From Owenweeksia hongkongensis DSM 17368 (GTDB lineage Bacteria > Bacteroidota > Bacteroidia > Flavobacteriales > Schleiferiaceae), in contig NC_016599.1 of assembly GCF_000236705.1 (NCBI RefSeq), positions 434,001-498,000 on the forward strand: a DNA stretch of 64,000 nt, given 5' to 3'. Below are positions 2,362 to 53,763 of the stretch, piece after piece. Each line of letters starts with the position of its first letter. Position 1 is the stretch's first letter. The notes under the pieces are model-generated. The model worked only from the letters and a program-made list of their open reading frames with translations, made no database searches and was not told the origin of the DNA. Both the position numbers and the translations under genes were made by a program.

Positions 2362-2631
2362 TTAGAGCTTAGCAGTAAGCTCAGAACCTGCTTTAAACTT
2401 AGCAACAGTTTTAGCTGGGATTTGAATTTTCTTTCCGGTCTGTGGGTTTCTACCCTCACGAGCCGCTCTTTCTGAAGTAGAGAAAGTTCCGAATCCTACT
2501 AGTGATACGCGACCACCTTTTGACATTGTATTAGCTACATTGTCGGTAAAAGAATCCAATGCTTTTTTAGCCGCAGCTTTAGAAATACCGGCATCAGCTG
2601 CCATAGCATCGATCAAATCTGATTTGTTCAT
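2362..2631 (-). CDS. HU-family histone-like DNA-binding protein
   Basis: Small basic nucleoid protein that bends DNA as a dimer. At 89 residues it is full length. The sequence shows the alpha-helical N-terminus (MNKSDLIDAMAADAGISKA), the VSLVGFGTFS core strand and the beta-arm GRNPQTGKKIQIPA with the intercalating proline. It stands alone with its own consensus promoter (2671-2700) and its own terminator (2309-2335), as expected for a highly expressed monocistronic gene. Confidence 0.96.
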   Translation of the reverse strand: MNKSDLIDAMAADAGISKAAAKKALDSFTDNVANTMSKGGRVSLVGFGTFSTSERAAREGRNPQTGKKIQIPAKTVAKFKAGSELTAKL

Positions 2632-2670
2632 GATTATAATTAATTTTAGTTAAACAATTATCAACTCTCA

Positions 2671-2700
2671 CAAAGGTAGACTTATAGCGGGATTGCGCAA
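2671..2700 (-). promoter_or_regulatory. HU promoter (Bacteroidota -33/-7)
   Basis: Read on the minus strand, TTG is followed after 19 bases by TACCTTTG, matching the Bacteroidota housekeeping pattern TTTG-N17-20-TAnnTTTG. The -7 element ends about 40 bases before the HU start codon. No Shine-Dalgarno sequence is apparent, which is usual for this phylum. Confidence 0.75.
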
Positions 2701-2787
2701 GTTTAGGCCAAAAAAAATGCCCTAAATGTTGAAAATAGTGGTCATTTGTTGAAAAAGGTAGGGGCAAACCTACTGTGAATAAGGGAT

Positions 2788-3726: not shown

Positions 3727-3803
3727 GATTGTGATTTTATGAAATACTGCTGCGCAGCAATGGATTCTGAATAAGTGGTAAAATTAAGAAGCTATTTGAT
3801 ATC

Positions 3804-5714
3804 TCAGCTATTGAGCGCGTAAAGGTCTTGGCCTACACTTTTGATAAAACCGGAATCCAGCAACCAGCGAAGTGCTTCCAGGCAAATGGTATCATTGATT
3901 TTCAATTGCTCCCGAATTTTTGCATGCGAAAGAGGCGATTTCTCCTGAAGTAATGATTTGATAGAAGCGATGGCTTTATCCATTTTTTCATCAGCATTTT
4001 CAGCTCCTTTTTTTGCACGGCATACATCACAATGCCCACAATCCTGTGTGCTTTTTTCACCAAAGTATTTGAGGAGTTTTACGCTTCGACAGGTTTCACT
4101 ATCACTTACAAAATCTTCAATAGCGTCTATTCGTTGCTTTTTATCCTTAAAACGATCCTTCAAATTTTCATTTGAAATAGAAAGATGCTTCGTTACCTGT
4201 CGTGGTTTATTGATGGTAATTTCAGAATCTCCTTTGTTGGGAATGTAGTCGATAATTCCTTTGGTCTTAAGATACTGAAGCGCTTCGCGAACATTTCGTT
4301 CCGTAGATTTTAACCTGCCCGCAATCACAGATTCCTGGATGGAAGCATATTCCGTTTCTAAACCGCCATAAGATCTGGTGAGTGATTTTATCAAAATATC
4401 CAGCTTGGGATAACGAAGCTGAAAATCATACAATGTGGTTCGATCCACTAAAATGTGAACACGTGAGGTAGACTTAAAACCTTCATTGAGTGTAAGCCAA
4501 CCCTCACGCTCAAGTATTTTTAATACTTCGTAGGCCTTTAGTACGGGCAAGGAATACTGGTCTATAAATGCTTTGAAGTCAAAAGGGAAGTTTTGCCCTT
4601 CGCCAGTGCCAGAAGCTAATTGTAAGTAATTATTTAAAGCTTGGTAGGTACGTTTTACAAATTCCAGATCCGGAAAGCTTTCCAGGTGCCTTCTTTTTAA
4701 TTCATCTAAATCTGGTGGGCCAATGAGCATTACAGAGTATGCTGTCTCACCATCTCGTCCTGCCCGGCCAGCTTCCTGAAAGTAGGCTTCTAGAGATTCG
4801 GGTAACTCAAGATGAAGCACAATGCGAACATCTGGTTTATCAATCCCCATCCCAAAGGCATTGGTACAAACTATAATTCTAAGCTTGTTATTAACCCAGG
4901 CTTCCTGCTTTTTCTTCCGGTCTTCCGGGCTCATTCCTGCGTGGTAAAAGTCAGCTGAAATACCATTTTGCGTAAGCCATTGAGCAATTTCTACGGTGTG
5001 CTTTCTATTGCGGACGTATATCAGGCCAGAGCCTTTTATTCTCCTCAATATTTCTATTGCCTTACTCCATTTACGTTCAGTGTGATTTACGTTATAATAA
5101 AGGTTGGGTCGGTAAAAACTCTTTTGAATAACATGCTTCTCAGGGAAGCTTAATTTTTCCTGAATGTCATCCACCACATTTGGGGTGGCCGTTGCTGTAA
5201 GGGCAAGTATAGGTACTGAGGGTAGTAGCTCGCGTATCTCTGCAATTTTGGTGTAGGGGGGTCTAAAGTCATATCCCCATTGAGAAATGCAATGTGCTTC
5301 ATCTACCACCAGCAAATTGACTTTCATGCGCTTGATGCGCTCCTGCACAATTTCCGATTGTAACCTTTCGGGAGATAGATATAAAAATTTGTATCGCCCA
5401 TGAACACAATTGTCCAGGGCAATATCAATTTCACGGTAGGTGAGACCCGAGGTAAGTGCTACAGCTGGTATTTCTCGGTTTTTTAGATTTTGAACCTGAT
5501 CAGCCATTAAGGCTATCAAAGGAGATACTACAATGCCAATTCCCTTTTGGGCCATTATGGGCACCTGAAAACAAATAGATTTACCCCCGCCAGTAGGGAG
5601 CAGAGCCAGTGTGTCTTTCCCCGAAAGGGCAGAATTTATAATATCTTCCTGTAGTGGACGGAAATTTCTAAATCCCCAATAGGAAAATAATATGTCATGA
5701 ATTTTGTCCGTCAT
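3804..5714 (-). CDS. recQ: RecQ-family ATP-dependent DNA helicase
   Basis: 3'-5' DNA helicase of recombination and replication repair. Walker A LLPTGGGKS is at residues 38-46 and the DEAH box at 138-141. Helicase domain 2 includes the GMGIDKPDVR and QEAGRAGRDG motifs, and a four-cysteine zinc site (CRSVKLLKYFGE...CGHCDVC) comes near residue 545-570. The last 60 or so residues look like a winged-helix-type tail, not a clear HRDC domain, so this may be the HRDC-less form. Its ATG overlaps the stop of the upstream NTPase gene by four bases (ATGA), implying translational coupling. Confidence 0.95.
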   Translation of the reverse strand: MTDKIHDILFSYWGFRNFRPLQEDIINSALSGKDTLALLPTGGGKSICFQVPIMAQKGIGIVVSPLIALMADQVQNLKNREIPAVALTSGLTYREIDIALDNCVHGRYKFLYLSPERLQSEIVQERIKRMKVNLLVVDEAHCISQWGYDFRPPYTKIAEIRELLPSVPILALTATATPNVVDDIQEKLSFPEKHVIQKSFYRPNLYYNVNHTERKWSKAIEILRRIKGSGLIYVRNRKHTVEIAQWLTQNGISADFYHAGMSPEDRKKKQEAWVNNKLRIIVCTNAFGMGIDKPDVRIVLHLELPESLEAYFQEAGRAGRDGETAYSVMLIGPPDLDELKRRHLESFPDLEFVKRTYQALNNYLQLASGTGEGQNFPFDFKAFIDQYSLPVLKAYEVLKILEREGWLTLNEGFKSTSRVHILVDRTTLYDFQLRYPKLDILIKSLTRSYGGLETEYASIQESVIAGRLKSTERNVREALQYLKTKGIIDYIPNKGDSEITINKPRQVTKHLSISNENLKDRFKDKKQRIDAIEDFVSDSETCRSVKLLKYFGEKSTQDCGHCDVCRAKKGAENADEKMDKAIASIKSLLQEKSPLSHAKIREQLKINDTICLEALRWLLDSGFIKSVGQDLYALNS

Positions 5715-10052: not shown

Positions 10053-10382
10053 TTAAATTTTTCGCTCTATTTCTTCCATTTCCAGAATGTCCAAAGCTTC
10101 GTTTTCATTTGCTGCCGATGGGGTAGTAAGTTCTAGTTCATCAAGCAGTTGTAAGGTGGCAATTACGATAAAGCTTTGGTCTTGTTTAATAAAACGATCT
10201 ATTATCTTTTTAAGTTGGGTAGGTTGGCGAAAATTTCTCGCTGCAACCATGTGCAAAATAACATTTTCAGAGGAGACATCGTCTAAAATATTTTCTAGGC
10301 TCTCAAACTCAGAGTTACCCACGCTCTCAAAAGGACAGCGAATAAAAATATGATCATCCCGATATTCCACCTCATAGTTCAT
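10053..10382 (-). CDS. small conserved protein, possibly STAS-like
   Basis: A 109-residue soluble acidic protein. The predicted pattern of strand (YEVEYRDDHIFIRC), helix (FESLENILDD), strand (NVILHMVAAR), helix and strand (FIVIATLQLLDEL) resembles a STAS or similar small alpha/beta fold. I base this on the pattern only and would not insist on it. It lies two bases from pyrB and four from the T9SS cargo gene, in the same run. In related genomes a protein of this kind next to rnz is, to my recollection, common. Confidence 0.65.
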   Translation of the reverse strand: MNYEVEYRDDHIFIRCPFESVGNSEFESLENILDDVSSENVILHMVAARNFRQPTQLKKIIDRFIKQDQSFIVIATLQLLDELELTTPSAANENEALDILEMEEIERKI

Positions 10383-10384
10383 AC

Positions 10385-11326
10385 TTAGCCTTTGAAGTTC
10401 ATCTTCTTTTTAGAAGCTAAAAGGTACAAAACGGCCATTCTAATAGCTACTCCATTTTCCACTTGATTTAGAATAATAGAATAATCGCTATCGGCTACTT
10501 CGCTGGTAATTTCCACACCACGATTTATAGGACCTGGGTGCATTATGGTTATGTCCTTCTTCAAGCTATCCAGCATTGGCAGGGTAAGACCAAATTGCTG
10601 GGTGTATTCTCGCACCGAAGGGAAATATTTTATATCCTGGCGCTCATGCTGTACTCTTAGCATATTAGCTACATCACACCACTCCAGAGATTCTTGTAGA
10701 TTATGCGAAACTTCAACCCCCAATGTATGAATGTATTTAGGAATAAGTGTGGTTGGCCCGCAAACTCTGACTTCAGCTCCAAGTTTTTGCAGGCAAAATA
10801 TATTGGACAGAGCAACTCTAGAGTGAAGTATATCTCCAACTATCACCACTTTTTTGCCTTTCAAATCATTATGTTTCTCTCTCATAGAAAAAGCATCCAG
10901 TAGTGCTTGAGTAGGGTGCTCGTGAGCTCCATCACCCGCATTTACTATGGTGCTGTCCACGTTTTGTGAAAGAAATACAGCCGCACCTGGGTTAGGGTGC
11001 CGCATCACCACCATGTCCACTTTCATAGACAAAATGTTGTTTACAGTATCAATCAAGGTTTCACCCTTGGAAACAGAAGAGGAGGAGGCCGAAAAGTTTA
11101 CAGTATCAGCCGAAAGGCGCTTTTCTGCCAGCTCAAATGAGAGGCGTGTTCGTGTACTATTTTCAAAAAAGAGATTAGCTATTGTAATATCCCTAAGTGA
11201 AGGTACTTTTCTGATAGGTCGGTTAATCACTTCTTTAAACTGATCTGCCGTTTGGAAAATCAGATTAATATCTTCTGTGCTAAGGTTTTTAATACCAAGT
11301 AAATGGTCTACACTTAACTCACTCAT
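10385..11326 (-). CDS. pyrB: aspartate carbamoyltransferase catalytic chain
   Basis: Condenses carbamoyl phosphate with aspartate in the first committed step of pyrimidine synthesis. The 313-residue length is typical. The carbamoyl-phosphate-binding motif STRT (residues 57-60, within FFENSTRTRLSF) is present, as are HPTQALLDAF, the VGDILHSRVALSN segment and MHPGPINRG near the C-terminus. It overlaps pyrR by eight bases. No pyrI regulatory chain is in the window. Confidence 0.96.
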   Translation of the reverse strand: MSELSVDHLLGIKNLSTEDINLIFQTADQFKEVINRPIRKVPSLRDITIANLFFENSTRTRLSFELAEKRLSADTVNFSASSSSVSKGETLIDTVNNILSMKVDMVVMRHPNPGAAVFLSQNVDSTIVNAGDGAHEHPTQALLDAFSMREKHNDLKGKKVVIVGDILHSRVALSNIFCLQKLGAEVRVCGPTTLIPKYIHTLGVEVSHNLQESLEWCDVANMLRVQHERQDIKYFPSVREYTQQFGLTLPMLDSLKKDITIMHPGPINRGVEITSEVADSDYSIILNQVENGVAIRMAVLYLLASKKKMNFKG

Positions 11327-11906: not shown

Positions 11907-13260
11907 TATCGGCTTCTTCGATCACTTTCTTCCAGTCAATGCCGTCAAAACTTCCAGAACTCATAATTAACAAGACGTCATCTTTCTTAAGTTCCGTTTT
12001 TATCTTGCTGATTAGGTTGGTATTGTCATCAAATACTTCCAGTTGGCTGTTGCCAAATTTATCTTGAATGGCCTGCGTATTTAGTTCTGGCAACCTCTTG
12101 TGCGCGACTACTTCCGGGTTAAAATATACATACTTTACATCTGCAGCATCCATACTTTCAGCATATTGATCCATAAATTCAATATTTAAACTGCTAAAAG
12201 TGTGTAATTCCAAGCAAGCAATTACGCGTCTATTTGGAAAGCTTTCTTTGACAGCATTTACGGTAGCATTCACCTTAGAAGGGGCGTGTGCAAAATCGCG
12301 GAAAGCCTTTATACCTTCTGATGCATCAATAGTTTCAAGCCTACGGGCAGCACCTTTGAATGAAGTGATAGCTTCATAAAACTGCTCATCATTTATGCCC
12401 ATTTGGTTACAAATCCAACGAGCGCCTTCCAGGTTATTCATATTGTGCTTTCCGAATATAGAAAGGGGCACAGGACCTTCCTCAGTATTTAATACAGCAT
12501 GTCCATCATTTACTTCGTAGTCTGGCAGACCGTAGGCAAATTTTTTCACCTCATTTTTGGTGCGTTCTATTACATTGTCTACCTCGGTATCGGTTTGGTT
12601 ATAAATTACCACACCTCCCGGTTCTATGCTTTCCAGCAAAAGATCAAATTGCTTTACATAGTCATCATATGTAGTAAACACATTAACATGATCCCAAGCT
12701 ATTCCTGAAATTAAAGTGATATTGGGTTTGTAGTGTAAAAATTTAGGACGTAAATCAATAGGAGAGGAGAGGTACTCGTCACCTTCGAGCAAAATAAAGT
12801 CGCTATCATTTGTGAGGCGTACCATGGCATCAAAACCTTCTAGCTGGGCGCCAATCATAAAATCACATTGATGATTATGATAATGTAGCACATGAAGAAT
12901 CATTGCCGAAATGGTAGTCTTGCCATGACTTCCAGCAATAACTACACGGGTTTTGTCTTTGCTTTGCTCAAATATAAACTCAGGGTAGGAGAGTACTTTA
13001 ATCCCCAATTCATTTGCTTTTGCAAGCTCAGGGTTATCCTTTCGGGCGTGCATACCCAAAATGATATAATCAAGATCTGTAGTAATATTTTCAGGGTACC
13101 ATCCCATAGACTTGGGAAGTAATCCTCTAGAATCTAATCGTGAGCGAGATGGTTCAAAAACTTCATCATCACTGCCACTTACTTCGTATCCTTTTTGGTG
13201 AAGGGCTATTGCCAAATTGTGCATGGCACTTCCGCCAATTGCAATAAAGTGTACTTTCAT
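11902..13260 (-). CDS. mpl: UDP-MurNAc:L-Ala-gamma-D-Glu-meso-DAP ligase
   Basis: Recycles the murein tripeptide by ligating it to UDP-N-acetylmuramic acid. It is a 452-residue Mur ligase. The N-terminal Rossmann-like domain is MKVHFIAIGGSAMHNLA; the ATP loop is AGSHGKTT (about residues 109-116). The central domain has LLEGDEYLSS and the C-terminal domain includes FRDFAHAPSKVNATVNAV. The HFIAIGG.AM.NLA start and FAHAP motif fit Mpl better than MurC, which has HTFxHHP-like features. It is upstream of pyrR on the same strand; a separate promoter for pyrR is likely. Confidence 0.9.
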   Translation of the reverse strand: MKVHFIAIGGSAMHNLAIALHQKGYEVSGSDDEVFEPSRSRLDSRGLLPKSMGWYPENITTDLDYIILGMHARKDNPELAKANELGIKVLSYPEFIFEQSKDKTRVVIAGSHGKTTISAMILHVLHYHNHQCDFMIGAQLEGFDAMVRLTNDSDFILLEGDEYLSSPIDLRPKFLHYKPNITLISGIAWDHVNVFTTYDDYVKQFDLLLESIEPGGVVIYNQTDTEVDNVIERTKNEVKKFAYGLPDYEVNDGHAVLNTEEGPVPLSIFGKHNMNNLEGARWICNQMGINDEQFYEAITSFKGAARRLETIDASEGIKAFRDFAHAPSKVNATVNAVKESFPNRRVIACLELHTFSSLNIEFMDQYAESMDAADVKYVYFNPEVVAHKRLPELNTQAIQDKFGNSQLEVFDDNTNLISKIKTELKKDDVLLIMSSGSFDGIDWKKVIEEADI

Positions 13261-13278
13261 TTATATAATTGCTTAGCG

Positions 13279-13286
13279 CAAATCTA
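13279..13286 (-). promoter_or_regulatory. candidate mpl -7 element
   Basis: TAGATTTG on the minus strand fits TAnnTTTG and ends 18 bases before the mpl start codon. No clear -33 element is seen inside the end of the upstream gene, so support is moderate. Confidence 0.35.
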
Positions 13287-13295
13287 TAAAAGCAT

Positions 13296-14078
13296 TTATT
13301 GTGCGGGCTGTACTACTTCCAATTTTGTTGCGTCAGCAAGATTTATCATAAAACGTTCGCCAATTAGATCGTCTAAAGCACCTACCATATGTACTTGGTT
13401 GGCATCTTCTTTCGAAAAGTCAATCACCCCAGCTGATCCATCAAAAATGTCATTAATATCAAATTGAATAAGCAATTCCTGAGTGCTACTTGAGTTTACC
13501 TCCAAATCAGAGCTAAAGTCATACTCGCGAATTTGATATAAAGCATCTTTACCTGGATGTATAGAAACTAAGTAGTCAGTGCTAGTAGAAGTTTGCGTAG
13601 ACTGGCCTTCAAGTTTTACAAAACGATAATTAATCATTGGCCAGTACATGCTCTGATAATTGGAAAGAGGATGATTTTGCGAGAAAGAGGTTGGGTCTGA
13701 AAGGTTTTGCTCTGCATCTACACCGTATCCAATTTTGATACTGGTATAATTTCCATAAGGAACATTGAGAGTAGTGGTGTTATCATCATTTTTTACCGGT
13801 GATAAAATATCCACACCTTTAACTAAGTGTAGTGTACCATCATCTTCTGTAAGAGTAATGTCGGACACATACATTCTTAATAATTGTAGCTTAAAATCAA
13901 ACCCAGTGGTAAGTTTAACATCATCACCCAAAGCCATTTGATTGTTTTCATCCATAATAGCAAACTTCAGTTTTACCATTTTATCTGGATTTAACTCTTC
14001 TTTTTTATCCTCTTTGCAGGAAGATAATCCGATTATTAAAGCTAATCCAGCAACAGAAAATGTCTTTAAGGTTTTCAT
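13296..14078 (-). CDS. MbnP-like lipoprotein (copy 1)
   Basis: A 260-residue lipoprotein with signal and lipobox LIIGLSSC (Cys at about 21). The mature part has the MbnP family pattern: a first strand MVKLKFAIMDENNQMALGDD, then FDFKLQLLRMYVSDITLTEDDG, then SIKIGYGVDAEQNLSDP. MbnP proteins of methanotrophs bind copper through an oxidised tryptophan made by the MbnH cytochrome peroxidase; Bacteroidota homologues are mostly uncharacterised. No MbnH-type gene is adjacent. It follows the second copy by 10 bases and is probably co-transcribed with it. Confidence 0.78.
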   Translation of the reverse strand: MKTLKTFSVAGLALIIGLSSCKEDKKEELNPDKMVKLKFAIMDENNQMALGDDVKLTTGFDFKLQLLRMYVSDITLTEDDGTLHLVKGVDILSPVKNDDNTTTLNVPYGNYTSIKIGYGVDAEQNLSDPTSFSQNHPLSNYQSMYWPMINYRFVKLEGQSTQTSTSTDYLVSIHPGKDALYQIREYDFSSDLEVNSSSTQELLIQFDINDIFDGSAGVIDFSKEDANQVHMVGALDDLIGERFMINLADATKLEVVQPAQ

Positions 14079-14088
14079 AATATTTTTG

Positions 14089-14835
14089 TTAAAACAAGTT
14101 TACTTGAAGACTATCAGCTACTTCTAGTGCAGCATCCATGTCAAACTGATTGGTAGGGTCAGTTTTAATTACTGGTCGGTCATAGAGTTGCATGTCATTA
14201 AATACTGGCCATAAATTTATTTGCACTATAAACGGAATTACGGCTGTACCTGAAACTGAAAAATTATTCACATCACTAATTTTGGACCTTGAATATGCTG
14301 TGGTTCCAATTCTAATATCAAAAGGAATTTTTCCAATGGAATCCAATGGATCAAGTGGATCAAAAAGCTTGCCCTTTATGACTATATGGTCAATACCATC
14401 TGCATCTAATCTAAATACACTGGAATTTTTCAATTCATCATCCTGAGCCATGGCCTTGGTGTAACCCACTCCTTGGGCAGAATCTAAACCTAACCTCAAT
14501 CCATATTGGCCAGAGTATCCGCCAGTTATAAAACGAGAGATTAATCGCTCTTGGTTTTTGGCTGTAATTAAAAATGGCTCTGGTCGGTGCAGAATAGTAT
14601 CACCTTTTTCAGCAAATGTATAATCGCTAAATGCAAAACTCATTTCAGTAAAATAAAACTCAAGACCCAAATTATTGGTGTAAATGGTGTCAAGATGTAC
14701 CGTTGAAGTATCGTATAGAATAGACGTTTCAATATTTACATTGTCTTTATTTTTTGCGGGGTTCTCGGTAGTTAGATCTTTCTCTTCGCATGCAAAGAAA
14801 GCTGGTACTATGAGTAGAAGAAATAATTTTCTCAT
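14089..14835 (-). CDS. MbnP-like lipoprotein (copy 2)
   Basis: A 248-residue lipoprotein starting MRKLFLLLIVPAFFAC, where the lipobox Cys is residue 16. The open frame extends to 14874, but that start lacks a signal sequence at its N-terminus and lies upstream of a candidate -7, so the ATG at 14835 is preferred. MbnP-like features are LEFYFTEMSFAFSDYTF, GQYGLRLGLDSAQGVGYT and a C-terminal VQINLWPVF(N)DMQLYDRP stretch. It is divergent in sequence from copy 1 (13296-14078) but of the same size and order of motifs. Function is inferred from family only. Confidence 0.7.
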   Translation of the reverse strand: MRKLFLLLIVPAFFACEEKDLTTENPAKNKDNVNIETSILYDTSTVHLDTIYTNNLGLEFYFTEMSFAFSDYTFAEKGDTILHRPEPFLITAKNQERLISRFITGGYSGQYGLRLGLDSAQGVGYTKAMAQDDELKNSSVFRLDADGIDHIVIKGKLFDPLDPLDSIGKIPFDIRIGTTAYSRSKISDVNNFSVSGTAVIPFIVQINLWPVFNDMQLYDRPVIKTDPTNQFDMDAALEVADSLQVNLF

Positions 14836-14857
14836 TGTTGAAATAAGGGTTAAACTC

Positions 14858-14865
14858 CAAATATA
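14858..14865 (-). promoter_or_regulatory. candidate -7 element of the MbnP pair
   Basis: TATATTTG on the minus strand matches TAnnTTTG and ends 22 bases before the preferred ATG at 14835. No convincing -33 TTTG is present. Confidence 0.38.
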
Positions 14866-14931
14866 GCAATACAATTACTATTGAATGATAGGAGATAATT
14901 AAAAAATAGGAGAGACTTATTAAACGCCAGC

Positions 14932-15723
14932 TTAGGAAGGAATGTCGCTTTGTTCAGTTACTTGGCTATCCTTAATTTTCTTCATGGTATTGAAGTCTTC
15001 GGTTTGCTCAATATTACGCATCAACTCGTCCAAAATTTGACGACTGTTCATGTTGTCGTAATCCAGCTTTAGCGGTTCCTTTATTGTAATGGAAAGTTTT
15101 ACACCTCTTTTTTTAAGGTATAATCCTTTTTTATCAAATGCTCTTCTAAAACCATCCACCACTACAGGAATTACAATAGGCTGAGTCTCTTTAATGATAT
15201 GAGCAGTGCCTCTTCTGCCAGGCACATAAGGAGTGGTGGTTCCTTGTGGGAATGTGATTACCCAACCAGCATCAAGTGCTTTGTAAATTTTGTTGATATC
15301 GCGCTTATCTACTCCACGATCCACCTCTTTACCAGCTTGACGCCAGCTACGTTTAATGGATACCGAGCCTACATAAGCAAATAGCTTTGGCAAAAATCCA
15401 GCCTTCATGGTTTCAAGAGCGGCCACAAAGAATATGTTGAGCTTAGGATTAAGAAGGTATATAGGGTTTGTAATTTTATCATACATACCCCATTTAGCAG
15501 AACAAAAAACTTGATAAAGTCCCATTACATCTGCGAAGTAAGTTTGATGATTGCTCACAAACATAACCTTAGTATTGGGCAAGCCCTTAAGGTGTTTACT
15601 TCCTTTTATTACTGTTTTGTTGACAATATTAAAACGATAAAATGCAACGAGGCCAACAATAAATATTAGAAACCTCTTTATTATCAGTGAATTGCCGAAT
15701 GCATCGCGTAGTCTGATCTTCAT
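14932..15723 (-). CDS. lysophospholipid (1-acyl-glycerol-3-P) acyltransferase
   Basis: A 263-residue PlsC-type acyltransferase, inner-membrane associated through an N-terminal hydrophobic segment (about residues 17-33). Acyl transfer to lysophosphatidate or a related acceptor is inferred. The catalytic NHQTYFAD (NHx4D) box is at about residues 58-65. The third motif reads FPQGTTTPYVPGRRGTAHIIK, with Gln where many PlsC proteins have Glu. The spacing is otherwise normal, and I believe this variant recurs in Bacteroidota. A KR-rich C-terminal tail follows. Substrate is not known. Confidence 0.85.
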   Translation of the reverse strand: MKIRLRDAFGNSLIIKRFLIFIVGLVAFYRFNIVNKTVIKGSKHLKGLPNTKVMFVSNHQTYFADVMGLYQVFCSAKWGMYDKITNPIYLLNPKLNIFFVAALETMKAGFLPKLFAYVGSVSIKRSWRQAGKEVDRGVDKRDINKIYKALDAGWVITFPQGTTTPYVPGRRGTAHIIKETQPIVIPVVVDGFRRAFDKKGLYLKKRGVKLSITIKEPLKLDYDNMNSRQILDELMRNIEQTEDFNTMKKIKDSQVTEQSDIPS

Positions 15724-15774
15724 GTAATGCTGAAATATCCTGGGCCAAAGATAGAATTAATAAAAAAGGAGGTG

Positions 15775-16407
15775 CTACAATACCTTAATAATCATCTGTC
15801 GAAGCTCGCTTAGCATCATAGCTGTGGCTCCCCAAATAGTGTGTCCATCTACGTAAAAGGTAGGCACATCCATGTTGAACCCACGCACATTTATTCTTTG
15901 TTGCTTGATGGATGAGTCTAGCAAAAAGTCATTAAAATCAACAGTAATAACATTCGCCACCTCACTAACCTGAGGAATAAACTGTGGCTCTTGGTGATAA
16001 ATTCCTGTAAAAGGATGAACCATAAAATTGCTCGGAGGGATATAAATAGGAGAGAAACTACCAAATACTTCAATCTCCGATGCTTTCAATCCAATTTCCT
16101 CTTCGGTTTCGCGAAGAGCGGTTTCTTTAAAAGAAGTGTCTTGTTCTTCAACTTTGCCTCCAGGAAATGCAATTTGCCCAGAATGAACACCTTTTGATGT
16201 GGCTCGTTCGATGAGTACAAGGTGTGGCCTTGTTTTTGTTTCAACGAAAAGCGCCATAACACCAGCCTGCCTAATATTAGTCTCTTCTATTTGAGAAGGT
16301 ACGAAGGCTGTTCGGCCTACAGGGGCAAGCATATGCTGTGCATCACTGCCCGGTAGCGGTTGCCGAAGTGCGGATTTTAAAACGCCTTGAAATTGTTCAA
16401 AGTTCAA
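15775..16407 (-). CDS. Nudix hydrolase, CoA pyrophosphatase-like
   Basis: A 210-residue Nudix protein predicted to hydrolyse CoA or its derivatives. The Nudix box reads GGKVEEQDTSFKETALRETEEEIGL (key residues Gly, Glu and the REtEEEiGL end). Upstream is HSGQIAFPGGKV and downstream FSPIYIPPSNFMVHPFTG, both typical of the NudL/CoA-pyrophosphatase branch. The start is a TTG at 16407; the frame stays open upstream but I see no ATG or GTG there. It is divergent from oxyR across a 132-base gap. Confidence 0.85.
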   Translation of the reverse strand: MNFEQFQGVLKSALRQPLPGSDAQHMLAPVGRTAFVPSQIEETNIRQAGVMALFVETKTRPHLVLIERATSKGVHSGQIAFPGGKVEEQDTSFKETALRETEEEIGLKASEIEVFGSFSPIYIPPSNFMVHPFTGIYHQEPQFIPQVSEVANVITVDFNDFLLDSSIKQQRINVRGFNMDVPTFYVDGHTIWGATAMMLSELRQMIIKVL

Positions 16408-16505
16408 GTTAAGTAGCTTTATGATTAAGTCTAAACCGATGAACGAAGGTAGAAATCTAGATTAAAAAAATATCAATGTGATAACATTAAATAAGTTTTA
16501 ATTAT

Positions 16506-16513
16506 TAAATTTG
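16506..16513 (+). promoter_or_regulatory. candidate oxyR -7 element
   Basis: TAAATTTG matches TAnnTTTG 26 bases before the oxyR ATG. No strong -33 TTTG lies at 17-20 bases upstream, which is compatible with a regulated promoter but does not show it. Confidence 0.38.
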
Positions 16514-16539
16514 CTCATCCAATTTGTAAAAGTAATATA

Positions 16540-17481
16540 ATGACAATAACACAACTTCAATATTTAATAGCGGTAGACAACCACAGGCACTTTGCTCGTG
16601 CTGCCGAGGCATGCTTTGTTACTCAACCCACATTGAGTATGCAAATTCAAAAATTAGAGGACGAATTGGGTGTATTGCTTTTTGACCGAAGTAAACATCC
16701 GGTAAGACCTACATCTATCGGGGAGCGTATTGTTAATCAAGCACGCACTGTTGTTCATGAAAGTGAGCGTATTCATCAAATATTGCAGGAAGGTAAAAAC
16801 CAACTTGAAGGTCCGTTTAAATTAGGAGTTATTCCTACCGTAGCATCTTCATTAATTCCTCGTTTCATTGCCAATTTCCATAAGAAGTTTCCCAAAATTC
16901 AACTGCAAATTCAGGAACTTCAAACCGAAACTATTCTTGAAAAGCTCAGGATGGATGAGTTAGATGCTGGAATTATGGCGACACCTCTTGATGAAAAAGG
17001 AATTATAGAAAAGCCTTTATATTATGAGCCATTCATGGCTTTTATTCCTGAAAATCACCGTTTGGGTAAAGAATCTTTTGTGACGAACTCTGAACTTAAT
17101 GTGGATGACATTCTTTTGCTAAATGAAGGACATTGCTTTAGAAACAGTGTTTTGAATATTTGCAATCAACCGAAAAAAGAAGATAGCAAGGCTATTAAGT
17201 TGGAAAGTGGAAACTTTGAAACACTGGTGAAGCTAAGTAAGCAAGGTTTTGGAATGACTTTGATTCCATACTTGCACGCATTGGATCTTGCTGAAGAAGA
17301 TCAAAAACTTGTAAAGCCAATTGCTGATCCACGACCTATGCGTGAAGTTAGCATTGTGTATACAAGAGCCGAACTTAAGATTAAGGTAATTGAGGAGCTT
17401 CACAAGATCATTTTGAATAATATTCCTGAGAAACTTGCAAACGAAACGGAAGACGTGGTAAGTCCGTTGAAGAGCGCTTAA
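16540..17481 (+). CDS. oxyR: hydrogen peroxide sensor OxyR (LysR family)
   Basis: A 313-residue LysR-type activator of peroxide defence genes. The N-terminal winged HTH is MTITQLQYLIAVDNHRHFARAAEACFVTQPTLSMQIQKLE in family position. The redox switch is intact: Cys199 and Cys208 enclose eight residues in the GHCFRNSVLNIC segment, the same numbering and spacing as E. coli OxyR. The effector domain ends with the GFGMTLIPYL segment. It stands divergent from the Nudix gene and is followed by its own terminator. Regulated genes cannot be named from sequence. Confidence 0.93.
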   Translation: MTITQLQYLIAVDNHRHFARAAEACFVTQPTLSMQIQKLEDELGVLLFDRSKHPVRPTSIGERIVNQARTVVHESERIHQILQEGKNQLEGPFKLGVIPTVASSLIPRFIANFHKKFPKIQLQIQELQTETILEKLRMDELDAGIMATPLDEKGIIEKPLYYEPFMAFIPENHRLGKESFVTNSELNVDDILLLNEGHCFRNSVLNICNQPKKEDSKAIKLESGNFETLVKLSKQGFGMTLIPYLHALDLAEEDQKLVKPIADPRPMREVSIVYTRAELKIKVIEELHKIILNNIPEKLANETEDVVSPLKSA

Positions 17482-46093: not shown

Positions 46094-48028
46094 TTAATTT
46101 ATGATACTTTTCTTTCGCACAAAATACATATCTAATTTACCCTTTCCCTTGGCTTCAATTTTTCCTCTATGCTCAAACTCGAGTTCGGGCACATCTTTGA
46201 TGATCTCATAAGTAACCTCCGAAATGTTGACCTTTCCTACCTCACAGGAGCTCTCCATTCTAGCTGCGGTGTTTACGGTATCACCCCAAATATCATATTG
46301 GAATTTCTTCACACCTACAATTCCGGCAACCACCGGCCCGGTATGAATTCCTATCCGCATACTGAACAGGTTTAAAATATGTGTATCGCTGTATTGCTGT
46401 CTTTTTTCCTTTACAATGTCTTGCATTTCCAAAGCAGCGAGAACTACATTTTTTACAGAGTTTGGATTTGGAACAGGCACACCACCAGCCGCCATGTATG
46501 CATCACCAATGGTTTTTATTTTTTCGATTTTGTATTTAGAAACTACATTGTCAAATGCCTTGAAATAATAATTGATTTCATTCACGAGCTCTTTGGCCGT
46601 TAGTTTTTCGGAAAGCTCAGTAAAAGCCACAAAATCTGTAAACAACACAGACACTTGGTTAAAATCACGTGCTTCAGATTTCCCCTGCTCTTTAAGTTCT
46701 TCGGCTATTTCATAGGGGAGAATGTTAAGAAGCAGTTTTTCGCTTCTATCTTTTTCCTTTGATATTTTTCGCTTTTGCAAAATGGCAACCAATAGAAAAA
46801 TAATTACAGATACAAAGCCAGCAATAACCAGATTTCGGACAACCTTCTGCTTTTCTAAATCTAAAGATTGTAGCTCTTGATCCTTTTTTAAGAGGTTTAT
46901 TTCGTTTTGCTTTTTTTCTATTTGGAAATTGAAGAGTTGATTGGAAAGGAGTTTTTGAGTTTCAATGTTGTAAAGGGAATCCTTTACATTAACCATAAGG
47001 GTTTGGTATTTATAAGCACTGTCATACCTATTAGAAGCGAAGTAAGCTTGACCTAAGCCTAAATAAGAGAGCTCCAAAAATTTAAGATAGTTAGTTTCTT
47101 TGGCGAGAATTATGGCTTCTCTATAAAGATTAATTGCCTTGCGATAATCTTTTAAATCGAAATATACTTCCGCCTTTGCAACTAGAGCGGTGGTTTTGTT
47201 TGGTTTTGCATTTAGTAGGTCAGCAGTTTCTAGAGCCTCATCTAATGTTTTTAAAGCTTTTGAATATTCTCCTTGTTTGGTGTATACTTTCCCAATTTCA
47301 ATCATGGTAAATACAGTACCATCAGTCCCCTGCATTGCATTCAAAGAGCGAGTGTAATACTCTAAAGCAAGATCATAGTTTTTTCGGGTGAAGTAAACGA
47401 TTCCAATATTAAGGGAAGAGTTTGCAATAGCATCGCTGGCGCCAATTTTTTCACTAAGTTCCAATGCCCTGCTTAAGTATTCCAGAGCCTTGTCGAGAGT
47501 TGCTGATTTATCAATATATACCGCTCCAATGTTGGTTAGAGCAGTTACTATTCTTAGTGTATCCTTTAATTCTTCGGATATTTTAAGAGATTTGAGGTAA
47601 TAATCTAGAGCTCGGTTATACTCGCCTTCATTATAATAGATGGCTCCGATGTTACTTTGGATGTTAGCTACACCAATTCTATCATTTATAGAGTCAAATA
47701 CAGACAATGATTTTTGCCAACTTGATAATGCATCCACATATTCTCCTTGGTAGTAATAAGCAATTCCTACATTCTTTAAAGCATAGGCAGTACCTTTCCT
47801 ATATCCTATTTTATGTGCCAATTTCTTGGCATTCTCAGCAACGATAATTGCCTTTTCTGGAGCTGAGCTAAAGTAAACACTACTAAGTTCAAGCATCTTG
47901 TTCACCTTCAGAGTGTCCTCTGGCAAGGTGTGCACGTGGGCTCGGAGGCTGTCAATTTCATTGCCTTGCGCACTTACTGATAAATTCAACAAAAGGATAA
48001 GTAAAATTGGCAGTACGTGTCTCAGCAT
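46094..48028 (-). CDS. TPR sensor class III adenylate/guanylate cyclase
   Basis: A 644-residue membrane cyclase. Signal peptide (1-20), eight or so TPR repeats (about 55-345), a TM helix at about 398-418, then a class III cyclase domain (about 450-640). The metal-binding Asp residues are Asp465 (LFTDFVAFTELSEK) and Asp509 (IKTIGDAYMAAGG). Lys505 and the Asp in FQYDIWGD are the residues that usually select ATP, so cAMP is the more likely product. It follows the giant subtilase-like gene by 26 bases. Confidence 0.9.
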   Translation of the reverse strand: MLRHVLPILLILLLNLSVSAQGNEIDSLRAHVHTLPEDTLKVNKMLELSSVYFSSAPEKAIIVAENAKKLAHKIGYRKGTAYALKNVGIAYYYQGEYVDALSSWQKSLSVFDSINDRIGVANIQSNIGAIYYNEGEYNRALDYYLKSLKISEELKDTLRIVTALTNIGAVYIDKSATLDKALEYLSRALELSEKIGASDAIANSSLNIGIVYFTRKNYDLALEYYTRSLNAMQGTDGTVFTMIEIGKVYTKQGEYSKALKTLDEALETADLLNAKPNKTTALVAKAEVYFDLKDYRKAINLYREAIILAKETNYLKFLELSYLGLGQAYFASNRYDSAYKYQTLMVNVKDSLYNIETQKLLSNQLFNFQIEKKQNEINLLKKDQELQSLDLEKQKVVRNLVIAGFVSVIIFLLVAILQKRKISKEKDRSEKLLLNILPYEIAEELKEQGKSEARDFNQVSVLFTDFVAFTELSEKLTAKELVNEINYYFKAFDNVVSKYKIEKIKTIGDAYMAAGGVPVPNPNSVKNVVLAALEMQDIVKEKRQQYSDTHILNLFSMRIGIHTGPVVAGIVGVKKFQYDIWGDTVNTAARMESSCEVGKVNISEVTYEIIKDVPELEFEHRGKIEAKGKGKLDMYFVRKKSIIN

Positions 48029-48054: not shown

Positions 48055-51000
48055 TTAATCCTTGATGACCTTATAAGTAAACCTTTCTTCTTTGGTCTGC
48101 ACAATAACCATATACATTCCGGGGTGCACGTTAGAGAAGTCTACTTTGTAATTTCCTAAATCAGTCTTTGTCAGTATATAATTCTCATTCGTACGCTTTC
48201 CATTGAGGTCATAAATGAATATTTCTTCGCCAGCAAACTGGTTGAATGTATTTATAACTAAATGATTTTTTACTGGGTTGGGATATATCGATGGCTCTGT
48301 TGCATATTCCTCGGCTAACTCAATTGGTGAGCTACTTTTCTTAGCAACTATACATTTTTGCGAATTATTATTAGCATACACCAAACTATAGCTTAGGCTA
48401 TTGTTTTGATTGGAAAATACAAACCATGCAAAACCAGATCCGTCAAAGTAGATATCCTTACTGCCATTTCCCGCATGGAATATTTCAGTTGGATCATCAC
48501 TATTTAGCCCCCCAGAAAGTATCACATTATTTTTTCCTTTTGGAATATAAATTGGAGTGCTATTTCTATTGCTATAGCTAATGTGGGCCACATAATCAAA
48601 ACCTGAAGAGTGGTTACTAATTTGATCAACGCACTGTAAGGAGAGTAGGATTTTTTGGGTTCCAATACCTTTTGGGTTCACGTATAATTGTCCGGTGGTG
48701 TAATAGATCAAATAGTTTGATGCACGTTCTATTACTAAACCAGATGGATTAATATCATACACACCAGCTGCGCCAGTATACATTGAACCTAATGTGAGGC
48801 TTGGTGCTGATAGTATTGAATCTATACTATAATGATCACCTAAAATATCATAGTTAAAAGGAGGCGCTGGAGAACCTGCTTCAGCGAATGTATCTCTAGC
48901 TGTAACATAAATCTCAGCCGGGTTTACGGTCAAAATTCCATCAATGAGGATAATGTCGTAATTACCTGAACTTCCTCCCAGCAGGTAAATTGGATAAACT
49001 CCAATACTGCTGGAGTCAACGGCTTGGCATGATACGATAGGAAGTGTTAAGTCACCAGGAGCGTCATTGTATTCAAATCCATTATATGATAGGTTGAATG
49101 CAGGATTAGGTTTTCCATATATTTTGGAAGTATCTTCTGCAGTGACGATAAGGTTTGCTTTATTAACTACCAATTTTCCTAACACATAATGCACAACATA
49201 ATTTGTAGGTTGCACCAGCATTAAACTATCTGGAACAATGGTGTATGTTCCCGCATCTACTTGCGTTGTGCTTATTGAATTTTCACTTGAATCTAAAATC
49301 TTGTAGGTGGGAATATTCTTAATCACGTTAGAATCTGCATCACCATACTGATAACCGCTGGTAGAGTGAGAAAAGGAGATACTGTCCCCATATGTCCTTG
49401 TTAGAGAATCAACTTTAAAGGTTAGCGTAGCAGGAGTGATAGTGAGGTTCCCTAATTCATAGGTGATATTATAATTTGCATTAAATAGGGGGGCAGGAAC
49501 AATAATATGAACTCCTACATCTGTTCCAGTTATTAAATTAATCGGTAAGAAACGAAAGACACTATCAGTTCCTAAAGTATCCAGATCATTTTCATCAAAA
49601 ACTAAAGCCACCTCACCACTATCGGAAATGGTATCTAATCCATTGATTAAAGGGATTCCATTCACTAATGGTTGGGCATTAACCAAAGGATAACCGTTGA
49701 CAACGGCTCTTCCATATGCAACGGCTCTAGCATTTACCACAGCCCTCCCATAAGCAGATAGTGTAGATCCTCTCTGGCGTGGAGCGGTTAGCAGGGTTGC
49801 ATTATTTGGTGAAGTTTGATAGTCAAAAATTGATTGGGCTGCAATCTCGACAAAATAAGTAGTATCATACTGAATGGCGCTGTTTACCACGGCTCTTCCA
49901 TAAGCCACAGCTCTTGAGTTTTCCACAGATCTTCTGCTAGCGGCATAAGATAATCCACGTAGATCGGCATTTACTACTGCACGTCCGTATGCACTTCTTC
50001 TTACTACAGCCACAGCATTCGTTAAGTTGGATTGGTGATTATACTCAATGGAATCGCTAAATAAAGCTAGTTCAGAAGGGGCAACAAGTGAATCTTCAAA
50101 TGAATATTCAAAATGGAAATCACCTAAGGGATAACCATATTCTACCGTTGTATCTTTTGCAGTAATGGTTAAAGGCATTGGGTTTATGGTTAGCGATCCA
50201 TCTACAAACTCATAATTGAACAACTCAGAAAGTCCAAGTTCATAAGGGATGTTCAAGTCAAGAGAGTCCATTTCTGCACGGATCAAATAAATTCCAACAT
50301 TGCTAGTGGAGGTGGCTGTTGTAAATACATCAATACTGTCAAGACCTAAATCATAAAGACTATATCCAGCAGAATCAAAAGGAATGCTGTCCACCAATAC
50401 CTCAAAGGTTAAAAGAGGAACTGCTTCGCTATACTTTTTGGTTTTGTTGTTTACAACAATTTGCACGTTTTTTTTGGTTGGAGAAAATAGGAGGAGGGTA
50501 TCTGAAAATCCACCATCCAGAAGAGAGGAAGAGATGGGATTGTTGTAAACTCGAACTGGTGGGTTTCCATTAAATGGCGGAATATTCGCTGCAATTTCTG
50601 AAGAATTAATATAGTTTGATGAGACGGTGTCATCACGTAATAATACTATACTTGAAGGTGTAAAATAATCTCCGATGATGTTTACACTTATAGTATCCGT
50701 TCCCGGAATTTGGGTAGTATCGAGAAATGAAACCTGTGATACGGATGGCTTGGGGTTAGCAAAAGAAAGCATGGCTTGATCGGCTTGAATAAATCCTGAG
50801 CCGCTTTCATTATCAAAACCAGAAGCACCCATATCAATAGCAGTATTGCTAAGCAAGTTTTTAATTTCTAATGGTGTGCTATTATGGTTTTCAAATTTTG
50901 CTTGAGCTGATTTTAGCAAAGCGGCCACCCCAGCGGCATGTGGTGCGGCTGCGGAGGTACCAAAAAAGTTTGGAAACGCATCCGATTCTATATTTGGTCC

Positions 51001-53763
51001 ACCAATATTTACAGTGGTATTCACGCCATTGGGGGCGCAAAACTCAGGTTTGTTACGAGCTGTTCCATTTACAGGGGTGCCACCTCTTGACGAAAATGAA
51101 GCAACAGAAGGTGTGTTTCCAAATTCTGGAGTATTGCTATAAAGCACAGCTCCCACGGCCATTGCACCTTCTGCATTAGGGTGGCCAACTATGGTGCTGG
51201 TCCCGGATTGATATTCATTAATAATCATATTGCCCTGAAAGACGATGTACTTAAAAAATACATTTTGACTTCCAGATTCGCGAACGATCAATATGTTGGA
51301 CTGTGTGTGTTGAGTCACCGTAAAAGGCATTACCTCCAAGGGGTCGTTGTTGAGGTTATTTCGGTTAAAACCGAAAAGGGTGTTCCCTAAATCATCAGTC
51401 AGATAAATGTCCAAGTCATTATTAGTACCGGTACTGGTTTGCCCAATACTATAAACTGAATCTTGCCATTGCAAAACGATGGTATAATTGCCTGGCTCTA
51501 GAGTTACACTTTGAAAAATATCGCCTCCACCAAAGTCATGAGCATCACCAAGAATGTTATTAGGAGTAGGAGCTGGGTTGAATGCGGAGGCATAGGATTT
51601 ATCACCAAAATTACCAGCTGATGAAAAGTAGCTAACTCCCGAATCTGCCACGGCATTTACAGTTTGTGAAATCACACCATCGGTCAAAAAGGGCTCTGTA
51701 ATAAAGGTGATGTCGTCTACTATTATGTCACAGCTATCTGCTGCAAGGTCTAGAATCCCTTTAGCCATATTTCCAGCGCTCAAAAAACCTGTAGTAAATG
51801 CAAGCTCAGCCTTAGGTGCCACATCATGAATTATTTGCAGCATGGCTCGGCCTTCGTCAGATTGAACTCCATAAGGGAAATCCTGAAGAACCTTTATTGG
51901 AGTTGGGTTTTTAGTATTTCCATTACCGGGTAGATCTTCGTTCAATACGTCTGTCGGAGCTTTATTTCCTGGTTGAGTATTGTAGCTATTTGACAAAACT
52001 CCAACTTTCACACCTTCACCGGCAACATCATACCCTAATCTTGCAAAAGGAGCTCTTAGAGCTTTATCGCCTTGACTTAGTGCAATTCCACTATTTACAA
52101 CTGGGGGAAAGAGAGGACGAACGTAATTGATAAGAAGGGGGAGACTATCTAGTTTTTGTAAATTTTGGATAGGAAACAGACCTGTTATAGTCAATGAAGA
52201 AGGGCCATTATCAATCACATTTGTAAGACCATAGCTTGGTGATTGCAACAAACTAAGAAGCGTTTGATATTGTCCTTGTACTGCAATAACCTCTATGTAA
52301 ACCCCGCCATTATCTAACCTGAAAATGTTACCAGCGGTGTCATTATAATTTGCATTGTCAATCAATGTTCCCAATTCAGAGCCAGTAGGATTGGGCGATT
52401 TACCTGCGGTGGGTGGCGGATAATAGGGTATAATGCAGCTTGATTCGGGCACATTCACATTTACAGATTGGGAGCAGCCACTGGCCAGGGAAACAGTCAA
52501 CGTGTATAGTCCACCTTTATTTACCGTAGGGCTAAGCGTATTGGCTCCGCTTGCAATATTTCCATTTGCCGTGTGCCAATTGTAAGTGGCATTTGTAGCG
52601 CTGGTATTTGCTAATAGTACAACATTGCGTTGGCTGCAGGTTACTGAGTCAGGGGTGCTAATATTGATAACAAATGAAGAATCACAAAAGGCGAAAGGTA
52701 CATGTTGAAAAGTTACACCATTATTTAGGGTTACAAACTTGGGGCTGAAAAGTGCACCGGTTACAAATGCTTGGCTTGTGTTTTTACTAATAGTAATACC
52801 TCCGAAAGGAGCCCAAACCGTTCCTTTCCATTCTGAATATTTATTTGTACCAATCCACCCCGAATTTTGATACCAAGCTGTTTTTCTATCGCTTGAGGAA
52901 GAGCCTGTTCCGTGCGTTTCAGCGTAAATCCTTGAAGCATCGCCTCCATTGATAATGTTTACCTCAAGTTTCCCAAGGTCTACATCTCCATGAATTAGAA
53001 GTCGGATGTTACCTGTGGGGGCGTTTTGAAAATCGAAGGTGAAAACGTTTTTGTACCCAGTATTTTTTATTGCGCTAAACACATAATCACCAATTCCAGA
53101 AAACACAAGCTCATTTACACCACTTAAGGCAATACTGTCATAAGAACCGGGAGTAATATTAGCATCACTGTAAATAGAAGTTGATCCCAAGGGAGGGAAG
53201 CTGTTTACGAAAGGATATTTGGGTAGCGGTGCGAATACAGGTTGAGACAACACTTCACCACCCTGTGGAGTTGGGCCATCGTACTGCGTTCCTGCTGGAT
53301 GGGTTACTTGCCCAATTACAAAGCCGGGTTGAATAATGATATCACCATTTATGAAAAGATTACCAGCCAAATTTGCACGGTGACCAACTGTTAAAGTAGA
53401 GTTTGAGCTTGACCTGGCATTTGCGCTCCAAATACTTCCAGACACTTGGGCATCTGTAAAAATGTGAGTTTCATTTCTTGCGTAGATTCCTCCTTGAAGC
53501 GTAAATGACCATAAGGTGGATACGTTAGTATAGCTTCCTACATTTCCCCCCAATATTACATTGGTTGCTCCTAAAGAAACTCCACAATCATTGGGTGCTA
53601 CGCAATTAGAATCCCCTCCCAAAATTGCATAATCCATAATGGAAGATGATTGTGAGGTGCTGAATAGGGGGATTAAGAAAATAATAAGTCCGAGGAATGT
53701 TTTGTTTCCAAAGGAAATACTCCAATTGCTGCCAAGGCTGGCGCATTTTGTAAAGGTTTGCAT
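48055..53763 (-). CDS. giant multidomain subtilase-like T9SS surface protein
   Basis: 1902 residues. Signal segment about 15-39; beta-rich adhesin-like domain (40-360); PKD-like domain (365-445); S8 subtilase-like domain (about 570-975); IPT/TIG-like domain (about 1005-1095); five MBG domains (about 1098-1700); T9SS type A sorting domain (about 1825-1902). Ser937 of GTSAAAPH and Asn718 of SAGN fit a subtilase, but the Asp and His positions read Ser591-Asn592 and Glu637. MBG domain 2 carries four AYGRAVVN octapeptides at residues 1258, 1287, 1337 and 1349, then YPLVNA-QPLVNG-IPLING. Probably a surface adhesin or altered peptidase. Confidence 0.88.
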   Translation of the reverse strand: MQTFTKCASLGSNWSISFGNKTFLGLIIFLIPLFSTSQSSSIMDYAILGGDSNCVAPNDCGVSLGATNVILGGNVGSYTNVSTLWSFTLQGGIYARNETHIFTDAQVSGSIWSANARSSSNSTLTVGHRANLAGNLFINGDIIIQPGFVIGQVTHPAGTQYDGPTPQGGEVLSQPVFAPLPKYPFVNSFPPLGSTSIYSDANITPGSYDSIALSGVNELVFSGIGDYVFSAIKNTGYKNVFTFDFQNAPTGNIRLLIHGDVDLGKLEVNIINGGDASRIYAETHGTGSSSSDRKTAWYQNSGWIGTNKYSEWKGTVWAPFGGITISKNTSQAFVTGALFSPKFVTLNNGVTFQHVPFAFCDSSFVINISTPDSVTCSQRNVVLLANTSATNATYNWHTANGNIASGANTLSPTVNKGGLYTLTVSLASGCSQSVNVNVPESSCIIPYYPPPTAGKSPNPTGSELGTLIDNANYNDTAGNIFRLDNGGVYIEVIAVQGQYQTLLSLLQSPSYGLTNVIDNGPSSLTITGLFPIQNLQKLDSLPLLINYVRPLFPPVVNSGIALSQGDKALRAPFARLGYDVAGEGVKVGVLSNSYNTQPGNKAPTDVLNEDLPGNGNTKNPTPIKVLQDFPYGVQSDEGRAMLQIIHDVAPKAELAFTTGFLSAGNMAKGILDLAADSCDIIVDDITFITEPFLTDGVISQTVNAVADSGVSYFSSAGNFGDKSYASAFNPAPTPNNILGDAHDFGGGDIFQSVTLEPGNYTIVLQWQDSVYSIGQTSTGTNNDLDIYLTDDLGNTLFGFNRNNLNNDPLEVMPFTVTQHTQSNILIVRESGSQNVFFKYIVFQGNMIINEYQSGTSTIVGHPNAEGAMAVGAVLYSNTPEFGNTPSVASFSSRGGTPVNGTARNKPEFCAPNGVNTTVNIGGPNIESDAFPNFFGTSAAAPHAAGVAALLKSAQAKFENHNSTPLEIKNLLSNTAIDMGASGFDNESGSGFIQADQAMLSFANPKPSVSQVSFLDTTQIPGTDTISVNIIGDYFTPSSIVLLRDDTVSSNYINSSEIAANIPPFNGNPPVRVYNNPISSSLLDGGFSDTLLLFSPTKKNVQIVVNNKTKKYSEAVPLLTFEVLVDSIPFDSAGYSLYDLGLDSIDVFTTATSTSNVGIYLIRAEMDSLDLNIPYELGLSELFNYEFVDGSLTINPMPLTITAKDTTVEYGYPLGDFHFEYSFEDSLVAPSELALFSDSIEYNHQSNLTNAVAVVRRSAYGRAVVNADLRGLSYAASRRSVENSRAVAYGRAVVNSAIQYDTTYFVEIAAQSIFDYQTSPNNATLLTAPRQRGSTLSAYGRAVVNARAVAYGRAVVNGYPLVNAQPLVNGIPLINGLDTISDSGEVALVFDENDLDTLGTDSVFRFLPINLITGTDVGVHIIVPAPLFNANYNITYELGNLTITPATLTFKVDSLTRTYGDSISFSHSTSGYQYGDADSNVIKNIPTYKILDSSENSISTTQVDAGTYTIVPDSLMLVQPTNYVVHYVLGKLVVNKANLIVTAEDTSKIYGKPNPAFNLSYNGFEYNDAPGDLTLPIVSCQAVDSSSIGVYPIYLLGGSSGNYDIILIDGILTVNPAEIYVTARDTFAEAGSPAPPFNYDILGDHYSIDSILSAPSLTLGSMYTGAAGVYDINPSGLVIERASNYLIYYTTGQLYVNPKGIGTQKILLSLQCVDQISNHSSGFDYVAHISYSNRNSTPIYIPKGKNNVILSGGLNSDDPTEIFHAGNGSKDIYFDGSGFAWFVFSNQNNSLSYSLVYANNNSQKCIVAKKSSSPIELAEEYATEPSIYPNPVKNHLVINTFNQFAGEEIFIYDLNGKRTNENYILTKTDLGNYKVDFSNVHPGMYMVIVQTKEERFTYKVIKD
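49647..49992 (-). repeat. coding repeat block AYGRAVVN / xPLVNG
   Basis: Four octapeptide copies lie at 49969-49992, 49882-49905, 49732-49755 and 49696-49719 (minus strand), followed by three hexapeptides of form xPLxN(A/G). The four copies differ at several synonymous positions, so the repeat is kept at protein level and is not a recent DNA duplication. Confidence 0.85.

Follow-up and report, generated by a model that had tools for sequence, protein, structure and literature searches.

The window (the whole stretch of 64,000 nucleotides analysed here) contains two adjacent genes on the minus strand, which are the subject of this analysis; their features are listed in Table 1. The upstream gene encodes a protein of 1902 aa with a signal-peptide-like N-terminus. 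Pfam searches recognized a Peptidase_S8 domain (59.5 bits, cut-off 21.8), five MBG_2 stretches (PF18676, 117 bits for the whole protein), and a Por_Secre_tail. The C-terminal sorting domain of the type IX secretion system (T9SS) was detected both by PF18962 (40 bits, cut-off 27) and by TIGR04183 (39.5, cut-off 23), by which the protein is a predicted T9SS type A cargo. Motif segments of the subtilase domain were placed by eye near residues 588, 636, and 935. The Ser motif GTSAAAPH was intact, the segment where HGT is expected reads DEGRAM, i.e., has Glu, and the Asp segment reads GVLSNS (Asn) in the window and in several relatives and GVLSDS in most others. The subtilase domain may be inactive or dependent on another acid. 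PDB searches with this protein gave matches restricted to the subtilase part and to chance stretches.

The downstream gene follows after 26 bp on the same strand and encodes a protein of 644 aa. Its layout, read by eye from the sequence, comprises a signal-peptide-like start, TPR repeats (TPR_12, E 1e-48), a hydrophobic segment, and a cyclase domain (Guanylate_cyc, PF00211, 191 bits). By its Lys/Asp signature (KIKTIGDAYM/YDIWG), the catalytic domain is of the class III adenylate type. A Pycsar defence system was considered and rejected: only generic cyclase-domain matches were obtained, the recurrent neighbours found were subtilase, HD, and GAF-kinase genes, and no recognised Pycsar effector was among them.

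Table 1. Features of the two genes in window coordinates
Feature	Coordinates	Strand	Basis
Subtilase-like/MBG/T9SS type A CTD protein, carrier of the array	48055..53763	-	ORF, Pfam, TIGR04183
Insert in the second MBG domain, ~residues 1250–1404, repeat arrays and loops	49552..50016	-	alignment of relatives; approximate boundaries
AYGRAVVN copy 1, residue 1258	49969..49992	-	exact match
AYGRAVVN copy 2, residue 1287	49882..49905	-	exact match
AYGRAVVN copy 3, residue 1337	49732..49755	-	exact match
AYGRAVVN copy 4, residue 1349	49696..49719	-	exact match
YPLVNA-QPLVNG-IPLING hexads, after copy 4	49639..49692	-	sequence reading
Predicted periplasmic TPR – TM – class III adenylate cyclase, proposed receptor	46094..48028	-	ORF, Pfam
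Cyclase Lys85 (column 86, TPR1 position 5)	47774..47776	-	alignment
Cyclase Tyr92 (column 93, TPR1 position 12)	47753..47755	-	column scan
Cyclase Asn122 (column 123, TPR2 position 2)	47663..47665	-	column scan
Cyclase Ala129 (column 130, TPR2 position 9)	47642..47644	-	column scan

The array in the window and in related proteins

The second MBG domain, which matched PF18676 only along its C-terminal half (25.6 bits, cut-off 25), carries an insert of ~155 residues, non-repeat loops included. Four exact AYGRAVVN copies and the PLVN/PLIN hexads lie in it, as described in the first-pass annotation, and the order of the MBG_2 stretches confirmed that this domain is the second of five. The span given there is 49647–49992; its start clips the last hexad, the true edge being 49639. 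In 2000 shuffles of the carrier protein, two occurrences were the maximum for any 8-mer. Units of six and eight residues are mixed in this array, and AYGRAVVN represents one local version of a more frequent hexad, whose general form is close to [GA]-[RK]-[AP]-[LIV]-V-N. All four DNA copies differ (GGACGT, GGAAGA, GGGAGG, and GGAAGA for Gly-Arg), and they do so at the majority of synonymous sites; codon identity between the GRAVVN cores averaged 0.31 compared to 0.34 for random synonymous choice.

The opinion that no motif of this kind had been described was upheld: Pfam, NCBIfam, and PDB gave no match describing the array in the window protein, and a literature search for the motif found nothing. 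The titles and abstracts listed for MBG/T9SS/subtilase proteins, for cyclase/TPR proteins, and for Bacteroidetes peptide signals contained no earlier description. Fold prediction, proposed as a check on the array, was of little help; the predicted structure of the second MBG domain (two-sequence input) had a pLDDT of 28.5, and the array of locus L004 alone gave one long helix with pLDDT 58.4 and pTM 0.27, both of low confidence.

Relatives were found with a profile of the region preceding the insert in class, phylum, order, and family samples. Overall, the family comprises 57 loci in 40 Bacteroidota genomes, window included. All complete inserts carry an array at the same place, and most are divided by the same two loops. 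The recurrence named as a check in the first-pass annotation was observed for arrays in homologues, but exact AYGRAVVN was found in no protein other than the window carrier among the sequences searched. Two same-genus relatives have ARGRALVN in four copies (L027, genome G026) and SGRALVN, ARALVN, and GYPLVN (L004, genome G027, JAUICR010000003.1). Each protein repeats its own 6–8-mer, near-identical within the protein and different between proteins, e.g., RALVNG, KGLVNG, NPRVIT, GLSVIN, KRSVNG, GKRSVN, GKGLVN, AKVVTN, GRVVTS, NPRVITN, SRGIANG, GHPLAN, RGTALVNG, GIPLVN, LRGIVS, QRVIAS, GKSIVN, and GRAVAIVN. The unit is 6, 7, or 8 residues long and is present in up to 13 copies (range 5–13); the loosest array, L038, has no exact 6-mer more than twice.

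Strong matches in a search for GRAIVN in seven genomes were confined to this gene family, and no relatives were found in viral contigs and phages. The first order-wide search yielded L009 and otherwise chance low-complexity matches. Matches of the L043 and L055 inserts (IPLVNG/GRAIVN arrays) to Pam3_gp18, a cyanophage baseplate plug, were above the Pfam cut-off and were judged to be probably a low-complexity resemblance. Long collagen-like GPVGDQ/GPIGDQ arrays in another protein of a genome of the same order (L010, L023, and L024 of G398) are unrelated.

Identical copies within an array had an average codon identity of 0.47 (49 arrays) compared to 0.39 for a random synonymous draw, and the median pN/pS among repeat units was 0.18. 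The peptide is constrained and the DNA is not, most arrays being near synonymous saturation. Synonymous divergence in the window and low pN/pS across the family agree with the first-pass view that selection acts on the peptide, and the codon analysis together with the recurrence in relatives rules out a low-complexity artefact. A few arrays retain DNA similarity, which indicates that DNA-level spread does occur. The clearest is the QRAIAS array of L068/L138 (G1102), whose six copies have only two DNA versions and a codon identity of 0.89, a candidate for a recent sweep of new wording.

Linkage to TPR-cyclases and association of the motif with the TPR domain

At 32 loci (window included) of many families, the array gene has a TPR-cyclase gene as a same-strand neighbour. 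In 28 of them it lies directly downstream within ~220 bp, in two upstream (L026, L035), and in two further downstream (458 bp and 5 kb). Many of the remaining loci end too close to a contig edge for such a neighbour to be judged. Around the lone array gene of G568 (L040, L106/L147; AKAIVN), no cyclase was present within the sequence covered.

Eight array genes, each an orphan or a second copy in its genome (L052, L054, L058, L073, L049, L060, L032, and L055), all matched a cyclase-linked copy of their own genome at at least five of six motif positions (8/8); when linked genes from other genomes were compared, the same match was reached in 11.7%. The term orphan is loose for two of them, since L032 and L046 are tandem genes and L055 sits near the end of its contig. 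Genome G647 has two distinct motifs and two linked cyclases. In G1108 and G648, the gene of the second motif (GRILSN and KSIVIS) runs off the contig; a second cyclase is predicted for both, which do not count as tests. Among trios whose flank and loops were nearer to a sister from another genome, five had more of the motif in common with the genome-mate and five had less. This mixed result indicates that some of the sharing is due to whole-insert exchange between paralogues.

Motif distance was correlated with TPR distance when the cyclase domain and two subtilase regions were controlled for (partial r 0.305, permutation p 0.005); the 30 linked pairs used are related by descent, and label permutation does not remove all of the phylogeny. 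The value was 0.295 (p 0.007) for non-redundant pairs, 0.287 (p 0.01) without the T-5 group (motifs with Thr at position 5), and 0.245 (p 0.03) without the T-5 and AN groups. The other three regions, cyclase catalytic and two subtilase, gave −0.17 to 0.08 with all pairs and −0.19 to 0.13 across runs. Divergence of the motif follows that of the TPR domain and shows no such link to the catalytic domain of the cyclase or to the remainder of the subtilase.

Many columns were scanned, and the z values given here are uncorrected: for motif position 5, TPR1:12 was the leading TPR column (z 11.8, next 6.1), and for position 6 residue 360, past the last mapped TPR, ranked first (z 6.5) and TPR2:2 second (z 6.1). 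The non-groove columns TPR2:28 and residue 360 also rank high. Helix A of a TPR faces the groove, and helix-A positions 2, 5, 9, 12, and 13 gave 0.087 vs. 0.046 for other TPR positions (p 0.04), mostly in TPR1–3. Column numbers are the annotated residue plus one, and columns 93, 123, and 130 all lie on helix A. Column 93 is Phe in 3/3 T-5 motifs and in 0/29 others, Asn in both -AN motifs, and Tyr otherwise. At column 123, Asn accompanies all 27 motifs ending in N, and three of the five that end in S have Ser, Thr, or Arg there, i.e., three different changes in three families. Column 130 is Asn in 3/3 T-5 motifs and in no other. The T-5 receptors form no clade on the catalytic-domain tree, and two of them pair on the TPR3–7 tree.

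The Lys85 position is Lys in 31 of 32 receptors and Arg in the remaining one, and Asn at TPR2 position 6 is kept throughout. Lys at TPR1 position 5 is a clamp position of Hop-type peptide-binding TPRs (PMC2939883). The likeness to carboxylate-clamp TPRs (Hop, CHIP; EEVD tails) lies in the proposed short peptide in the groove and in two of the five clamp residues, TPR1 Lys5 and the common TPR2 Asn6 (PMC2939883), whereas Asn9, Lys2, and Arg6 were not seen in the cyclase TPRs and the proposed ligand is not acidic.

A possible peptide ligand and alternative explanations

The best explanation, although an evenly balanced one, is that the array serves as a peptide ligand in many copies, with the TPR-cyclase as its receptor, RRNPPA-like in working and not an RRNPPA member. 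A T9SS-exported subtilase-like scaffold would carry the ligand, and each copy would present, or release after proteolysis, the same short peptide (the GRAVVN core in the window). The groove of TPR repeats 1–2 in the downstream adenylate cyclase, with its TPR domain predicted to be periplasmic, would recognise this peptide, and binding would set the cAMP output. As all copies would have to fit one receptor, agreement within a protein and shared wording in second precursor genes would be expected, and so would a joint change of wording and receptor from one species to the next. Recognition of the peptide by the adjacent TPR domain would account for identity within proteins, change between species, sharing between paralogues, linkage, and the TPR-only association.

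The TPR, predicted to be periplasmic, and the exported array would be in separate compartments and could meet only if a fragment came back or if binding took place ahead of export. This mismatch favours either the return of a small fragment to the periplasm or recognition of the array prior to export. No conserved cleavage site was found in the arrays; GIPLVN and GLSVIN arrays are without the Arg/Lys seen elsewhere. We hold only tentatively, and rather lean against, the fuller reading of a new class of Bacteroidota peptide pheromones, in which 5–13 identical 6–8-mers in an Ig-like loop of T9SS-exported precursors would be released and sensed in trans by the periplasmic-TPR adenylate cyclase, with species-specific wording as private channels and several precursors per receptor.

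The same ligand–receptor pair could also work without a released peptide, the TPR-cyclase reading the intact array in the periplasm before T9SS export and cAMP reporting the export. Such a secretion checkpoint would explain the linkage and the motif–TPR association without proteolysis and would solve the compartment problem, and it fits the T9SS signal and the absent cleavage site. It has no inherent need for 5–13 identical copies or for rapid rewording between species, and we consider it unlikely. In a structural module (a beta-solenoid or cross-beta stack), identical units would pack best and the cyclase would be an ordinary regulatory partner. The LVN/NG pattern is beta-prone, and in some proteins the whole array has gone over to another unit length (SRGIANG heptads, GKSIVISN octads), but array size varies in single-unit steps, and the window array mixes units of 6 and 8. 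Searches gave no match to a solenoid or hexapeptide-repeat family, the structure predictions were of low confidence, and the TPR-only association and orphan-mate sharing would be left unexplained; we regard this as quite improbable. Left-handed beta-helices of hexapeptide repeats have the six-residue period in common; no Pfam match to them was obtained for the arrays, the unit length varies, and positions depart from the consensus in several proteins. The suggestion of a structural or binding module of T9SS adhesins is favoured in its binding half; its structural and adhesin half found no support, as the carrier is a subtilase-like cargo, the units have 6, 7, or 8 residues, and the strongest evidence points to the neighbouring TPR.

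Recombination might homogenise arrays and paralogues without any receptor, the TPR link being shared ancestry of a two-gene unit. The two DNA versions in L068 and the similar inserts of several genome-mates (L039/L051, L034/L047) are as expected from such concerted evolution. Yet the near-saturation and low pN/pS of most arrays are not, L055/L057, L061/L072, and L054/L056 share the motif core with no clear excess of codon similarity, and with shared ancestry an association of the motif with the catalytic domain and the flanking subtilase regions would be expected as well, which was not observed. We regard this explanation as very unlikely.

The proposed ligand–receptor pair can be compared with RRNPPA quorum sensing (Rap-Phr, PlcR-PapR, AimR), in which tandemly duplicated pheromone propeptides with repeated identical copies are known (PMC11343458). 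RRNPPA systems have, and the proposed pair would have, an exported precursor gene beside a TPR receptor gene (here at 32 linked loci) and a short peptide of 5–10 residues, sometimes in identical copies, with cognate specificity. RRNPPA receptors are cytosolic, DNA-binding or phosphatase-modulating, and belong to Bacillota, whereas here a predicted periplasmic TPR is fused to a cyclase in Bacteroidota; a signal-peptide-like start, a TM segment, and the cyclase domain (topology by inspection) argue against a cytosolic receptor. RRNPPA propeptides have 50–120 aa and 1–4 copies, in contrast to up to 13 copies within a T9SS cargo of 1900 aa. The pair is not assigned to RRNPPA, from which it differs in the compartment of the receptor, the output, and the type of precursor. 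Pheromone precursors of fission yeast also contain repeated copies of one peptide. A further likeness lies in receptor-driven change between species (PMC6342294); that system differs in being eukaryotic, with a GPCR receptor and defined processing sites.

If the proposal is true, a genetically encoded peptide ligand would be joined to a cyclic-nucleotide receptor, a combination not found described for Bacteroidota in the papers searched. It would supply a candidate input for these TPR-cyclases and ~30 ligand–receptor pairs with testable specificity residues. Even without signalling, a near-identical peptide on saturated DNA, reworded per species, is an unusual evolutionary pattern needing explanation.

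Some loci have additional neighbours. In L107 (G712), two tandem TPR-cyclase genes (12494–16756) stand behind one subtilase gene. HD-domain and GAF-histidine-kinase genes occur near the subtilase–cyclase pair at seven loci each (L026, at 2596–3825 and 10053–10667, L097, L098, L105, L110, L113, and L116) and are possible further parts of the pathway.
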